A stretch of DNA of 64,000 bases from an uncultured Eubacterium sp. (GTDB lineage: Bacteria > Bacillota > Clostridia > Lachnospirales > Lachnospiraceae). Below the pieces are notes generated by a model, which was given only the letters and a program-made list of their open reading frames with translations, was not told the origin of the DNA and ran no database searches. A program made the translations under genes and the position numbers. This document shows positions 1-22,057 of the stretch, piece after piece (within the stretch, counting starts at the first letter, position 1; every line of letters begins with the position of its first letter). Location: assembly GCA_947089855.1 (NCBI GenBank), contig CAMUML010000009.1, positions 1-64,000 of the forward strand. The letters are read 5' to 3'.

Positions 1-49
1 ACTTTTTTAACATTTTTCATTTTACCCATTGACATTTCTTAGCTGGACT

Positions 50-94
50 TTCTTTTTTTTGGCGGTCTGTGTTATAATCAGAACAGTAACCGCC
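50..94 (+). promoter_or_regulatory. extended -10 promoter inside a dyad
   Basis: TATAAT lies at 73-78 and is preceded by TG at 70-71, giving an extended -10; the -35 region (about 50-55) is poor. The -10 sits at the centre of an inverted repeat, GGCGGT at 61-66 with ACCGCC at 89-94, plus an inner CTGT/ACAG pair. A promoter whose -10 is centred in a dyad is a usual repressor arrangement. It points right, toward the candidate small ORF at 115-234. Activity is inferred from sequence only. Confidence 0.4.
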
Positions 95-114
95 AGATTG
101 GTTTAAAGGGTTTT

Positions 115-234
115 ATGTACTCCCAATCACGCAACATAGTTATCAATCTTTCTTTTCAGACCTGCTTTTGCGTGCTACTTTTGCTGTTTCGTTTGTTGTT
201 GAGACTATTGTACATATTTTTATGTACTTTGTAA
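115..234 (+). CDS. candidate small hydrophobic peptide (39 aa)
   Basis: I do not recognise this peptide and it may not be a gene. An ATG at 115 is preceded by AAAGGG at 105-110, a plausible but tightly spaced ribosome site, and the frame runs 39 codons to TAA. The C-terminal two thirds is rich in leucine, phenylalanine and cysteine with two arginines, which would make one membrane segment. It lies about 40 bp downstream of an extended -10 promoter, and its last codons overlap the first palindromic operator at 210-227. Size and hydrophobicity resemble type I toxins or small membrane peptides, but such leucine-rich frames also arise by chance in T-rich DNA. No homology can be claimed. Confidence 0.22.
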   Translation: MYSQSRNIVINLSFQTCFCVLLLLFRLLLRLLYIFLCTL

Positions 235-296
235 ATTGACGCAATACACAAAAATATGTACTCTTATTTGTTTATATTGTACATGTTTTTATATAC
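210..296. promoter_or_regulatory. left operator array, three 18-bp palindromes
   Basis: Three sites fit GTAYAYA-N4-TRTRTAC with small deviations. They lie at 210-227 (GTACATA-TTTT-TATGTAC, arms perfect), 244-261 (ATACACA-AAAA-TATGTAC) and 279-296 (GTACATG-TTTT-TATATAC). The start-to-start spacing is 34 and 35 bp. Three more copies with the same period occur at 651-735 on the other side of the 72-residue helix-turn-helix gene, the obvious candidate for the binding protein. Confidence 0.7.
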
Positions 297-310
297 CAAT
301 TTAAAGTATA

Positions 311-338
311 AAAAAAGAAAGTAGATAAATCTCTACTT
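311..338 (-). terminator. intrinsic terminator of the small repressor gene
   Basis: Read on the minus strand, a 7-bp stem (AAGTAGA with TCTACTT) around a 6-nt loop is followed by a T-rich run (complement of 311-318). It lies about 25 bp past the stop codon of the gene ending at 363. Confidence 0.65.
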
Positions 339-362
339 CCCCATGACTTTTTACTTTACTTT

Positions 363-581
363 TTACTTTATAATATATTCTTTATCTCCCTTTAAAACAG
401 CTTTCATATTCAAATAATTAGCTATTTTTACAATATCCTCTGCTGTAAAAGTATCTCTTTGCATTTTATTTGAAAAACTTTGTTTTGTCATTTCTAAAAC
501 ATTAGCAAGATCATTTTGTGTTAGTACTTTACCTTCTTTTTTAAAGTCATCTATTATATCCTTAATTGTATTTGCAAACAT
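363..581 (-). CDS. small Cro/C1-type (XRE) DNA-binding protein
   Basis: This 72-residue protein is essentially one helix-turn-helix domain. Residues 19-40 (LTQNDLANVLEMTKQSFSNK) have the pattern of the XRE family, with TKQSFSNK as the recognition helix, followed by a short helix ending in KIANYLNMKAVL. Homologues are common in phages and mobile elements as repressors or antitoxin-like regulators. The ATG at 581 is preceded by AGGGGG, and a consensus sigma-A promoter lies at 620-648. Three palindromes immediately upstream of that promoter and three beyond the gene's 3' end are probably its binding sites, so autoregulation is the likely arrangement. What else it controls is unknown. The AT-rich composition matches the island and not the rest of the window. 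Confidence 0.75.
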   Translation of the reverse strand: MFANTIKDIIDDFKKEGKVLTQNDLANVLEMTKQSFSNKMQRDTFTAEDIVKIANYLNMKAVLKGDKEYIIK

Positions 582-619
582 GAATATACCCCCTTATACA
601 ATAATGTTTCATATTTTAA

Positions 620-648
620 ATTATATCATATACTTAATTTTATATCAA
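620..648 (-). promoter_or_regulatory. sigma-A promoter of the small repressor gene
   Basis: On the minus strand TTGATA (648-643) and TATAAT (625-620) are separated by exactly 17 bp. The nearest palindrome (651-668) starts 2 bp upstream of the -35, so the bound regulator would sit against the promoter without covering the -10. Confidence 0.8.
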
Positions 649-650
649 CA

Positions 651-735
651 GTATATTTTTTTGTGTACTTTTCATATATTTAAGTACATAATTTTGTATA
701 CTTTTCCAATTTACACAGTACACAATATTATGTAC
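651..735. promoter_or_regulatory. right operator array, three 18-bp palindromes
   Basis: Sites lie at 651-668 (GTATATT-TTTT-TGTGTAC), 684-701 (GTACATA-ATTT-TGTATAC) and 718-735 (GTACACA-ATAT-TATGTAC), with start spacing of 33 and 34 bp. They match the left array at 210-296 in sequence and period. The array lies between divergent promoters for the repressor (minus) and the coiled-coil gene (plus). Confidence 0.75.
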
Positions 736-785
736 AATAATCACAACAAATAAAACAACAAACACAAAACACTTTGGCAATTTAA

Positions 786-814
786 TAGACTTTATACTCT
801 GGATGTGGTATACT
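786..814 (+). promoter_or_regulatory. promoter of the 80-aa coiled-coil gene
   Basis: TAGACT (786-791) and TATACT (809-814) are 17 bp apart, and TGG just before the -10 makes it an extended -10. The start codon follows 22 bp later with AGGAGG between, so the leader is very short. Confidence 0.6.
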
Positions 815-836
815 GATTTCACAGGAGGAAAACAAT

Positions 837-1079
837 ATGACAGATTCCGAAAAATTAGATTTGATATTAAATAAAATATCAAACATTGAATTACACCTTG
901 AAAATGTAACTGATAGAAATATTCAACTGCTTGCAGAGAATCACAGTAATTTAGTTGATAAACTTAACCAGGCCATACCAGTTGCAGACAAGAACCTCAC
1001 TTATGAAGTAAAAGTTAATTATCTTCTTGAGAGAGTATCGACACTTGAAAAAAAGGTTCAAATCTTAGAAGCAAAATAG
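837..1079 (+). CDS. small coiled-coil protein, unknown function
   Basis: An 80-residue acidic protein with no recognised domain. The heptad-like spacing of L, I and V (LDLILNKISNIELHLENV near residues 8-25, then LLERVSTLEKKVQILEAK at the C-terminus) predicts two helices able to form a coiled coil. The start is firm: AGGAGG at 823-828 is 8 bp before the ATG, and an extended -10 promoter lies just upstream. A terminator-like hairpin follows at 1103-1144. It is divergent from the small repressor gene and shares the operator array, so both are probably co-regulated. Similar short proteins occur in Lachnospiraceae accessory DNA, but I know of no function. Cytosolic, no signal peptide. Confidence 0.7.
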   Translation: MTDSEKLDLILNKISNIELHLENVTDRNIQLLAENHSNLVDKLNQAIPVADKNLTYEVKVNYLLERVSTLEKKVQILEAK

Positions 1080-1102
1080 CCACATAAGAAACCACCAATC
1101 AG

Positions 1103-1144
1103 AGTGTAAAGCCTATTCAATTGCCAATATGCTTTGCACTTTTT
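1103..1144 (+). terminator. probable intrinsic terminator
   Basis: A 10-bp stem with one wobble pair (AGTGTAAAGC at 1103-1112 with GCTTTGCACT at 1131-1140) is followed by TTTT at 1141-1144. It lies 24 bp past the stop of the coiled-coil gene. The loop is long (18 nt). Confidence 0.5.
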
Positions 1145-1261
1145 GTTTACAAAAGCATAGTTGAGATACAGACGTTTTTAACGATCGCTATTTTGTGGTG
1201 ATAACACATCTTTTGACACTCCACAACAATATTTCAATATTTTTCATTTCTTCATCACATA

Positions 1262-1292
1262 CAAAAAGGATGTCAAAACCATTGACACCCTT
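1262..1292 (-). terminator. intrinsic terminator of the serine recombinase gene
   Basis: On the minus strand, AAGGGTGTCAA and TTGACATCCTT form an 11-bp stem with one wobble pair, followed by TTTTTG. It starts 10 bp past the recombinase stop codon. Confidence 0.75.
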
Positions 1293-1301
1293 GTATCATT
1301 T

Positions 1302-1895
1302 TCATACTGCTGTCATTTCTGCTTTGTCACTATGATTCTTTATGATACGGTTTACTGTGCTTCGGGATAGTTCTGTATTGCGTACTATGTCAGCTATCTT
1401 CATACCGCTGTCATATAATGCCATTACCATTTCTGCCTTTTCATTTTGTTTGCTTGGTCTGCCGCCATTGCGCCCCCTTGCCTTTGCAGATACTAACCCC
1501 TCTTTAGTTCGTTGGCTGATTAAATCACGCTCAAGCTGCGATAGGCCAGACATAACCGTTAGTAAGAAATCGTTGTAAGGATTATTGCTAGTAGTATCTA
1601 ACCAGGTATCTTTCAGGCTTTTTATGTATGCACCCTTATTTTTGATTTTATCAACGGTTTCAAGCAAATCTTTCGTGCTTCGGGATATTCTTGTTAAATC
1701 AGCTATAATGACTGTATCTCCTGTTTCTAAATCATTAATCATCCTGTTTAGTTCCGGCCTGTCTGCTTTTGTGCCAGTCATTTTCTCACAATACAAATGC
1801 TTTCGGCTTACCCCTGCTGCTATAAGGGCATCTATCTGCCTGTCTAAATTTTGGCTATCTGTACTAACCCTTGCATATCCCAAAAAATCAGCCAT
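1302..1895 (-). CDS. serine recombinase (resolvase/invertase family)
   Basis: This 197-residue protein has the small serine recombinase layout. The catalytic domain begins GYARVSTDSQNLDRQ, with Ser11 as the expected nucleophile and Arg9 beside it. The conserved arginine-rich segment ADLTRISRSTKDL and the segment SQLERDLISQRTKEGL before the long helix follow. Residues about 140-187 (GRPSKQNEK to STVNRIIKNH) are the C-terminal helix-turn-helix that binds the recombination subsites. Length and order fit Tn3-type resolvases and Pin-type invertases. It acts on DNA as a dimer or tetramer; its target site is not certain here. A consensus promoter at 1939-1967 overlaps two ATATCAAAA direct repeats, which could be an autoregulatory site. 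No transposase is adjacent, so it is probably a leftover of a plasmid or transposon. Confidence 0.9.
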   Translation of the reverse strand: MADFLGYARVSTDSQNLDRQIDALIAAGVSRKHLYCEKMTGTKADRPELNRMINDLETGDTVIIADLTRISRSTKDLLETVDKIKNKGAYIKSLKDTWLDTTSNNPYNDFLLTVMSGLSQLERDLISQRTKEGLVSAKARGRNGGRPSKQNEKAEMVMALYDSGMKIADIVRNTELSRSTVNRIIKNHSDKAEMTAV

Positions 1896-1938
1896 ATTAA
1901 AAACCCCTTTTATATTTGTTTTGCTGTTTGATGTTAGA

Positions 1939-1967
1939 ATTATATCAAAAACATATCAAAACGTCAA
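1939..1967 (-). promoter_or_regulatory. recombinase promoter with overlapping direct repeats
   Basis: TTGACG (1967-1962) and TATAAT (1944-1939) are 17 bp apart on the minus strand. The spacer contains two ATATCAAAA repeats with an 11-bp period (1942-1950 and 1953-1961), one helical turn apart. This placement suggests a repressor site, possibly for the recombinase itself. Confidence 0.75.
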
Positions 1968-2306
1968 TAGATTATGATACGTTTTTTGAAACATTTTTAA
2001 GGAACAAGGATGTTGATTTTATGGGGTTTGCCCATGCAAGAAAAAATTGTACCAAAAACATTCGTTTTTGACACACTTAATATAGACGGGGATTACTGTT
2101 AGCCTTGTTATATGGTTGGCAAACGGATCAACGAAAGCATTAATTTTATTGGTTTATAGCAACGTACCGGTAAGGGGCGGTGCATTGAAAGGTAAACGTG
2201 TGGGCGGAATGCATACGTCGGAACTATTGGAGGGATTAGGACATCATACATAACAGTAACAATTTTTTATATGGTTAAGCCAATGCAAAGCAGCCACACA
2301 AGGGCA

Positions 2307-2325
2307 TAGGGGGCGTATTGCATAA
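2307..2325. repeat. direct repeat copy 1 (TAGGGGGCGTAT motif)
   Basis: TAGGGGGCGTAT followed by TGCATAAA, then an AT-rich stretch starting TATTTT. A second copy with a 3-bp insertion lies at 2627-2648, about 320 bp away and in the same orientation. The pair may be element ends or recombinase subsites; nothing in the sequence settles this. Confidence 0.4.
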
Positions 2326-2626
2326 ATATTTTGATTTTACTTTTCGGGTTGCCGGTTGTGCGGTACATCTATTCCTCAACGGTTTTTTGAAACCTCCCGA
2401 AAAATTGAGGGCGTGGACAAAATTATCAGCTGCCACTATCCATAAGCCAAAGCCGGTTTAACTGCTGCAATAGCTTTTTTAATCCGCTGGTTTTGACTTT
2501 ACAACTGCTGCATCCCTCCGGCAATTATCTTTACCCCTTTTCTTAGCTTAAACCGCATTAGAACGCCCATATTCGCATTTTATACTGCTTACCCTAGAAG
2601 TTTGCCTAAACAGCAAAAATGGATTC

Positions 2627-2648
2627 TAGGGGGCGTATACGTGCATAA
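2627..2648. repeat. direct repeat copy 2 (TAGGGGGCGTAT motif)
   Basis: TAGGGGGCGTAT, then ACG, then TGCATAAA, the same motif as at 2307-2325. Its first five bases are also the right arm of an 8-bp hairpin (CCCTAGAA at 2592-2599). Confidence 0.4.
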
Positions 2649-2741
2649 AATCCATATTTTATTATATGTGCTATCCAACCGACAAAATTGACGGATAGAT
2701 CTTATTACAATAAATACGGGCACGAATTTATGAGTGTCCGT

Positions 2742-2793
2742 GGTTCAGCCCCTTGAGGGGCGTGCCGAATGAGCAAAGCGAGTGGGGTGAACC
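2742..2793. other. GC-rich folded segment, oriT-like in appearance
   Basis: GGTTCA (2742-2747) pairs with TGAACC (2788-2793), enclosing a strong inner hairpin, GCCCC-TTGA-GGGGC (2748-2761). The segment is GC-rich inside an AT-rich island. Compact hairpins of this sort are found at transfer origins and in attenuators of conjugative elements. No relaxase gene is present, so the oriT reading is only a suggestion. Confidence 0.3.
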
Positions 2794-2909
2794 GGGGGAG
2801 GATCCCTGGCCTTATATAAAGCTGGCGCACTCGCAGGCTCGTTTGCCGTGCCGTTTCGCTATTGCTCAACAGCACCTGTTGTAGAAATAAAAAATGTGGC
2901 AATTTATTG

Positions 2910-2969
2910 TTAGGGTACTTTAACCTATAATAAAAAGTTTAAATAGCATTATAGGTTAAAGTACCCTAA
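2910..2969. repeat. 22-bp perfect inverted repeat
   Basis: The arm at 2910-2931 (starts TTAGGGTACTTTAACC, ends ATAAT) is repeated exactly in inverted orientation at 2948-2969, around a 16-bp AT-rich loop. A perfect 22-bp match is far beyond chance. No T-run follows on either side, so it is not a classical terminator. It could be an element end, a cruciform or a recombination site. Confidence 0.8.
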
Positions 2970-3014
2970 ATATTTTAAACCTATTTCAAATCCATATTTA
3001 CTATTTTTGTTATA

Positions 3015-3221
3015 TTAACTGTCGGTTAATAAACATTCACATAAATAGTACAATGTTTCAACATAATTTTCAGGGTACCTATAAGCTGATTTTGGTTTTG
3101 GCATATAAGGCCTCGCCTGTTCTGCCTTTTCCGTCTTGCCCTGCATGGAAAGCTTCTTTGCAAAGTTGGCGGATAGCTTGAAATCCTGTGTCGGATTGGG
3201 CTGGTATTTTTCGCTCTTCAT
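3015..3221 (-). pseudogene. possible fragment of a mobile-element gene
   Basis: A 68-codon frame whose first two thirds (residues about 1-40, rich in K, Q, E and A, including NFAKKLSMQGKTEKAEQARP) has balanced, GC-richer codon use than the surrounding DNA. Its C-terminus runs into AT-rich sequence. I do not recognise it. The sharp composition change suggests the 5' part of a conjugative-element gene cut off by rearrangement. It overlaps the GTG candidate start of the facing gene at 3188, one reason to prefer the later start there. It could equally be a chance frame. Confidence 0.25.
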
Positions 3222-3976: not shown

Positions 3977-4030
3977 CAATGTTTCTCCTGTTAGAGAGAT
4001 TCCATTTTCTATAAGGATATGAAACAATAC

Positions 4031-21055: not shown

Positions 21056-22057
21056 TTATCCAAAATTAAATATATCATCCAACATACGCAATGTTTTAAA
21101 ATTACCCTTTGCAGTCAATTCGCCTGTCATAAATGCACGTTGGAATGTCATTTTTCCAGCAATGATACGGTCCAGGACATCGGTTGACATCTTTGTATAC
21201 ACATCAATGCCATCCTGCTTTCCATAACTGCATTGCAGATGATCCTGCTCTACTTCTATTGTCAGCGGTTTTGTCTTTCCTTCAATAATAAAAAGGTATT
21301 TTGCCTTAAAATCCTGCTGAGGCCGGAAGTTCGATTCAAAATCTGATATATAAGCTGGCGTTTCCTCTTCCTCTTCTGGTTTATCTTTGTCCAGAAGTCC
21401 CTTAAATTTATTTGCAAGCTCTTCAATATCTTCTTTTTGTTTTTTTACATAACTGTCGTCTGAAACATATTTTGACAGCTGCTCACTCTCCTGCGGAGTC
21501 AGGCCCAAATCCTGCGTACGGAGTACCGTCTTTGTAACCGCCTGGTTGCTGGTAGGCAGGCTCTTCATTTTCTGTGAAATCGTCCGGTACAAATTTTCCG
21601 CCTTTTTTTCTATGATCAGCGAATAATCTTGATTCATTTCAAATGTAAGCAGGTCTGCCACATATCCGCACACGCCGCTGCAAGGCAAGCCACCTAAAAT
21701 TTCCCAAGCATTTGCTAGCGTAATTTCCCCTTCCCGTTCTCCATAAGTGGTAGACATAACTACTGGCTGCATATAGGTACTGCTAATTTTTTCTTTATCC
21801 CCATACAGCCAGCAGGAATCTAAAAACTGCTGCATATAGCCCCCGATTCCGAGCCATTCTACAGTTGTAGCAAGAATAATGCCATCTGCTTCTTTAATCG
21901 TTTGTGGAAGCGTTGCGATGCTATTTTTTTGTTCGTAAATATTATAACGTTCTACGGTAACACGAAGTTCTTCCAATACTTGCTGCATTTTATTAATTAC
22001 ATACAAAGTCGGATCATCCAGAACGCCTCTGCCTCCATAATAAATATTTACTTTCAT
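21056..22057 (-). CDS. flavodoxin-like reductase fused to SCP2 domain
   Basis: The 333-residue product starts at ATG 22057 (MKVNIYYGGRG), with GAGAGG 7 bp upstream. Residues 1 to about 160 have a flavodoxin/NADPH-dependent FMN-reductase pattern: an N-terminal strand and FMN-loop region, then IKEADGIILATTVEWLGIGG (about 60-80) and later PVVMSTTYGEREGE (about 100-113). A Glu-rich linker near 220-240 leads to a C-terminal domain, residues about 250-330, matching the SCP2 sterol-carrier fold (FIIEGKTKPLTIEVEQD, IIAGKMTFQRAFMTGELTAKG). SCP2 domains bind lipids or fatty acyl groups. The combination suggests an FMN enzyme acting on a hydrophobic substrate, but this is inference. It is transcribed singly. 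Confidence 0.8.
   Translation of the reverse strand: MKVNIYYGGRGVLDDPTLYVINKMQQVLEELRVTVERYNIYEQKNSIATLPQTIKEADGIILATTVEWLGIGGYMQQFLDSCWLYGDKEKISSTYMQPVVMSTTYGEREGEITLANAWEILGGLPCSGVCGYVADLLTFEMNQDYSLIIEKKAENLYRTISQKMKSLPTSNQAVTKTVLRTQDLGLTPQESEQLSKYVSDDSYVKKQKEDIEELANKFKGLLDKDKPEEEEETPAYISDFESNFRPQQDFKAKYLFIIEGKTKPLTIEVEQDHLQCSYGKQDGIDVYTKMSTDVLDRIIAGKMTFQRAFMTGELTAKGNFKTLRMLDDIFNFG

Follow-up and report, generated by a model that had tools for sequence, protein, structure and literature searches.

A gene for a 72-aa protein and the two arrays of palindromes around it most likely form a small switch that turns off the genes on both sides, laid out as in phage lambda. Judging from sequence comparison, we consider it quite probable that a single-domain CI-type repressor would silence two promoters directed outward and leave its own promoter free, in an arrangement that resembles the OL and OR operators of lambda in compacted form.

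Six palindromes around a gene for a CI-type protein

The gene (positions 363–581, minus strand) is located in a 64-kb stretch of DNA, the whole of which is called here the window. Its product is presumed to be a CI-type repressor on account of its homologues and of a match to the Phage_CI_repr family (PF07022; 30.5 bits with a cut-off of 22, residues 12–58). The window protein shares with this family the helix-turn-helix (HTH) domain only, with a score above the gathering threshold. Apart from the HTH domain it has only about 14 residues; given its length of 72 residues and the extent of the HTH match, it lacks a second domain that would serve cooperation and cleavage. By sequence, the gene has relatives in phages and mobile DNA of gut bacteria. 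The protein had no match among plasmid records and none among solved structures, and a literature search did not find a description of its family. Comparison of window positions 1–3200 with Rfam gave no match. The gene has an apparent promoter of its own, TTGATA-17-TATAAT (620–648, minus strand), overlapped by none of the palindromes, and a terminator-like hairpin (315–342, minus strand).

The palindromes follow the consensus GTAYAYA-N4-TRTRTAC, three on each side of the gene. The left array includes the outermost site (210–227, GTACATATTTTTATGTAC), the middle site (244–261) and the inner site (279–296); the right array includes the inner (651–668), middle (684–701) and outermost (718–735) sites. 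Those starting at 210, 684 and 718 match exactly, and those at 244, 279 and 651 have one mismatch each. Start-to-start steps are 34 and 35 bp on the left and 33 and 34 bp on the right; the gaps between the gene and the arrays are 66 and 69 bp.

A first reading made from the letters alone (the sequence-only reading) had reported the six palindromes at these places with a period of 33–35 bp, and we confirmed that they are real and far above chance. Positions 1–1000 contain three exact sites and six sites with at most one mismatch, compared with means of 0 and 0.008 (maxima 0 and 1) in 2000 dinucleotide shuffles. When up to two mismatches are allowed, the 64-kb window has eight matches (the six palindromes and two isolated ones at 21183 and 26892) vs a mean of 1.72 and a maximum of 5 in 100 shuffles. 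Across the whole genome the motif with at most one mismatch is found at 15 places vs 22 for a reversed-pattern control; in the absence of an excess, these numbers give no hint of a wider target set.

Parts of the two arrays belong to an inverted duplication. Its left arm (180–262) contains the middle and outermost sites, a promoter-like site and an A/C-rich leader; the right arm (683–762) is 78% identical to the left one over 83 bp. In three homologous loci (L016, L017 and L018) the arms are 71–76% identical over 79–100 bp.

Outward promoter-like sites at the arrays

Each outermost palindrome sits in the spacer of a promoter-like site TTTACA-17-TACAAT, leftward on one side (207–235, minus strand) and rightward on the other (710–738, plus strand); both face away from the repressor gene. 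The leftward site had been missed by the sequence-only reading, which saw no benefit for a repressor in a simple operator at the left array. With this site underneath it, the left array is the putative operator for a promoter that points left, and the objection is thereby answered; the same outward geometry recurs at the 3′ array of eight other loci. A rightward promoter at 50–94, which had been offered as a target for the left array, need not be invoked, and the window opens with ∼55 bases that form the edge of a repeat. The right array does more than stand beside the promoter of the gene, where its inner site precedes the −35 box by 2 bp: its outermost site lies inside the rightward promoter-like site.

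The promoter scan taken alone is weak evidence, as it returned 19 promoter-like sites vs 11.7 in shuffles. In all 13 outermost sites, a −10-like hexamer with 5/6 matches (TACAAT in 12 cases and TATCAT in one) begins with the final three bases of the operator. This box was positioned from the operator end, not scanned freely, so its TAC, being shared with the operator, is not independent evidence; what is independent is the last three bases of the hexamer and the −35 box. The hexamer 17 bp upstream agrees with the −35 consensus at 5/6 positions in nine cases, at 4/6 in two and at 3/6 in two (L019 and the 5′ promoter of L018). L030, L060 and L061 have an operator of 17 bp and, between the −35 box and the operator, a linker of 3 bp instead of 2, and still the spacer has 17 bp; these loci are the telling case for the predicted promoter geometry. 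The overlap with the outward promoter-like sites supports a putative operator function of the arrays, as in one of the readings originally put forward.

The exact promoter-plus-operator pattern was found in only one of 397 family genomes, namely the genome studied here, at its two window places. Outside the window, these genomes have 13 matches, all with two mismatches; the reversed control had four among the matches listed. A genome-wide regulon was among the readings set aside.

A/C-rich leaders follow the outward promoter-like sites (window 200–130 on the minus strand and 745–785 on the plus strand). Over 70 nt, the G+T fraction of the leader is 0.20–0.43 at 13 places, one of them shortened by a contig end.

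Conservation in homologous loci

Nine loci (the window, L016–L020, L030, L060 and L061) have the protein at identity of at least 51%. A 3′ array is present in all nine, reduced in L019 to a single site. In the eight loci with three sites, which represent seven distinct sequences (the arrays of L030 and L061 are identical), the 3′ spacing is invariably 35 and then 34 bp; L019, having one site, is outside this count. A 5′ array is present in the window, L016, L017 and L018, with spacing of 34 and then 33 bp in all four. The sequence-only reading had made its proposal depend on the presence of the sites beside close homologues, and they are indeed found there. The two-sided form rests on these four loci, all of which are metagenome-derived or draft contigs. 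On the 5′ side of L020, L030, L060 and L061 there are other, unrelated genes, and the 3′ array stands alone; the L019 contig begins 21 bases before the gene, too near to judge.

Conservation is concentrated in the half-sites. Identity in five 3′ arrays is 0.84 for half-sites, 0.64 for spacers (of constant length) and 0.64 for the upstream flank; in four 5′ arrays it is 0.88 for half-sites and 0.74 for spacers. The sites of L020 have two, one and two mismatches to the consensus, and those of L060 were picked out by eye. In none of the four two-sided loci does the inner site overlap the gene's own promoter; the gap to the −35 box is 2 bp in the window and 6 bp in each of L016, L017 and L018. With its promoter free of sites, repressor synthesis could continue, and the repressor could possibly activate its own gene.

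In 37 more distant loci, the window-type motif with at most one mismatch gave no cluster. A motif-free palindrome search in 28 of the 37 found no triple; this search is insensitive, as it detected pairs in four of six known positives (L020 and L060 were missed). In L107, a more distant homologue excluded from all counts, TAGACA-17-TACAAT is kept, the sites are degenerate and there is no even array.

Neighbouring genes and mobile DNA

The rightward promoter-like site is followed first by a gene (837–1079, plus strand) for an 80-aa protein, coiled-coil-like by eye; similar proteins are encoded beside the repressor-type gene in L016, L017 and L022. The 80-aa gene has a second promoter-like site (786–814, 9/12 matches) outside the palindromes and so may escape control. 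On the left, the window starts at a contig edge with a repeat (1–55) that cuts the leftward transcription unit and puts the leftward target outside the contig. Another 14 copies of these ∼55 bases are present in the genome, at least nine of them at contig ends, and they probably represent the end of an insertion sequence.

A 49-nt inverted repeat (753–801 and 1100–1148) brackets the 80-aa gene and adjoins a gene for a serine recombinase of DNA-invertase type (1302–1895; PF00239, phrog_125). Similar copies of the repeat occur beside small genes in L016, L017 and L022 and, in the same genome as the window, in L108–L110; some copies resemble terminator hairpins. A small protein ending in LTSSGxNLTEID(Y/R)IKE is encoded at L017:4044–4226, L060:2084–2413, L108:1009–1230 and L110:1568–1750, near a copy of the repeat in three of the four loci. 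Window genes to the right of position 4000 (lysS and others) were named by reading translations.

Neighbours of the homologues include ArdC-type, sigma-like, DnaJ-like, GmrSD-like and ORF6N proteins. Record MT835469 is a tailed phage with DNA polymerase, portal and tape-measure families and with an integrase-family gene two genes beyond the array; of seven records in which terminase PF03237 and relaxase PF03432 were sought, MT835469 is one that matched neither. The repressor-type gene was present in 1 of 11, 1 of 29 and 2 of 38 genomes of three genera, each count including the genome by which the genus was chosen; such sporadic presence fits mobile DNA.

Two homologous loci have a toxin-antitoxin context, and a toxin-antitoxin operon could include the gene as a third member with a regulatory role, the arrays being its autoregulatory or downstream operators. 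In L020 (619–1348) it comes after a gene for a ParE-type toxin (PF05016, 8.2e-8) and a 70-aa gene, and in L060 (927–1781) after HicB-like (PF15919, 1.7e-11) and HicA-like (7.4e-4, below cut-off) genes. However, the arrays are on the side opposite the toxin genes, turned towards other genes; four scanned window proteins and the neighbours of the gene in L016, L017 and L018 gave no toxin or antitoxin match; and no such pair was seen by eye in the phage loci L030 and L061. We regard this explanation as improbable.

The inverted duplication may alternatively mark the ends of a small mobile cassette, the sites being bound by a recombinase or a helper. Homology between the window and L018 stops near the inverted-repeat arms (window 180–765), and in L018 a chromosomal mgsA-type gene (PF12002) ends immediately next to the 5′ array (around 4829), with the 5′ outward promoter pointing into the end of that gene; this junction may represent either the end of an element or a rearrangement. 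The serine recombinase gene is also close by. Yet the arms are just 71–78% alike and contain promoters and leaders, five of the nine loci have no visible 5′ arm, and the window and L016 have common sequence past the arm; we find the cassette explanation highly improbable.

The sequence-only reading had likened the arrays to iteron or centromere-like sites as much as to operators, and both proposals were rejected: 29 neighbouring proteins scanned with Pfam include no supporting family, and the motif has no genome excess (15 places vs 22). Evenly spaced palindromes around a small DNA-binding gene do suggest a partition site, but the ParA, ParM and TubZ families are absent from those 29 proteins (neighbours, not whole elements), the outermost sites coincide with promoter-like sites and the three sites of phage MT835469 form a single promoter-proximal cluster, which leaves partition a very remote prospect. 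Replication iterons, with repeats of similar length and regular spacing, are the remotest of all, as the sites here are palindromic and not plain direct repeats, the gene between the arrays is of CI-type HTH and no replication-initiator family is found among the same 29 proteins.

Proposed mechanism and comparison with known systems

In the repressor switch that we favour, dimers of the single-domain CI-type protein would occupy the three palindromes on each side. Since the outermost site fills the spacer between the −35 and −10 boxes of the outward promoter, its occupancy would block RNA polymerase on either side of the gene; cooperation through the middle and inner sites, with their fixed spacing, would most likely raise occupancy. 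The inner right site, lying just upstream of the repressor gene's own −35 box and not overlapping it, would let synthesis of the repressor continue, or even help it, with the flanking genes shut. In this genome the rightward target would be the 80-aa gene.

A further step is possible, though we hold it doubtful: the 72-residue single-domain repressor may wind the two arrays up or bridge them, so that its own gene lies within a loop of ∼450 bp and one ordered nucleoprotein body results. As part of the same tentative claim, this would be a minimal lambda loop made without the second domain of lambda CI. The spacings of 35 and 34 bp and of 34 and 33 bp correspond to about 3.2 to 3.3 helical turns. 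Middle-to-middle distances between the arrays in the four two-sided loci are 440, 440, 470 and 450 bp (differing by 0, 30 and 10 bp) and, as a sign of a loop between the arrays, are only suggestive.

Lambda, in the part of its description drawn on here (PMC5880393), has three operators on each side of the repressor gene, outward promoters and a separate repressor promoter. To the extent of that description, the likeness is in the two sets of three putative operators flanking the repressor gene in the window, L016, L017 and L018, and in the overlap, by sequence, of each set with an outward promoter, two of the −35 boxes being weak. The arrays here are 440–470 bp apart, middle to middle, whereas the distance in lambda is about 2.3 kb. 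Sites here are 33–35 bp apart, whereas the spacing of lambda operators is about 23–24 bp. Unlike lambda, the 72-aa protein lacks the second domain of CI, no site overlaps the repressor's own promoter, and no Cro-like partner was identified. The switch falls outside the lambda type because the second protein domain and the own-promoter overlap are both missing.

The closest Gram-positive cases, within the portions of the accounts available, are ImmR of ICEBs1 and Rco of pLS20 (PMC4207663; PMC6540685). ImmR, likewise a repressor of a Gram-positive mobile element, is described there as binding six regions, with three of them close to each of two promoters (PMC4207663); these promoters share one region of ∼130 bp, whereas the arrays here flank the gene, and an ImmA-like protease was not seen here among the proteins scanned. 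Rco, according to the same portion of the account (PMC4207663), is an HTH regulator with two operators, forms a loop as shown by a 5-bp insertion and activates its own promoter. It differs in that its two operators, separated by about 75 bp, both lie to one side of divergent promoters that overlap, its motifs are not those of the window palindromes and, as far as described, it is a tetramer.

Biological meaning

The layout is already known from lambda; the variant proposed here is compacted around a single-domain protein. If the repressor reading is true, a complete two-sided switch would be contained in about 530 bp with a protein of 72 residues, and it could show the minimal protein required for cooperative, possibly looped, repression. 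It would also provide a small controllable promoter pair for organisms short of such tools. Mobile DNA of gut Lachnospiraceae would then carry the two-sided switch, and a large gut phage its one-sided form.
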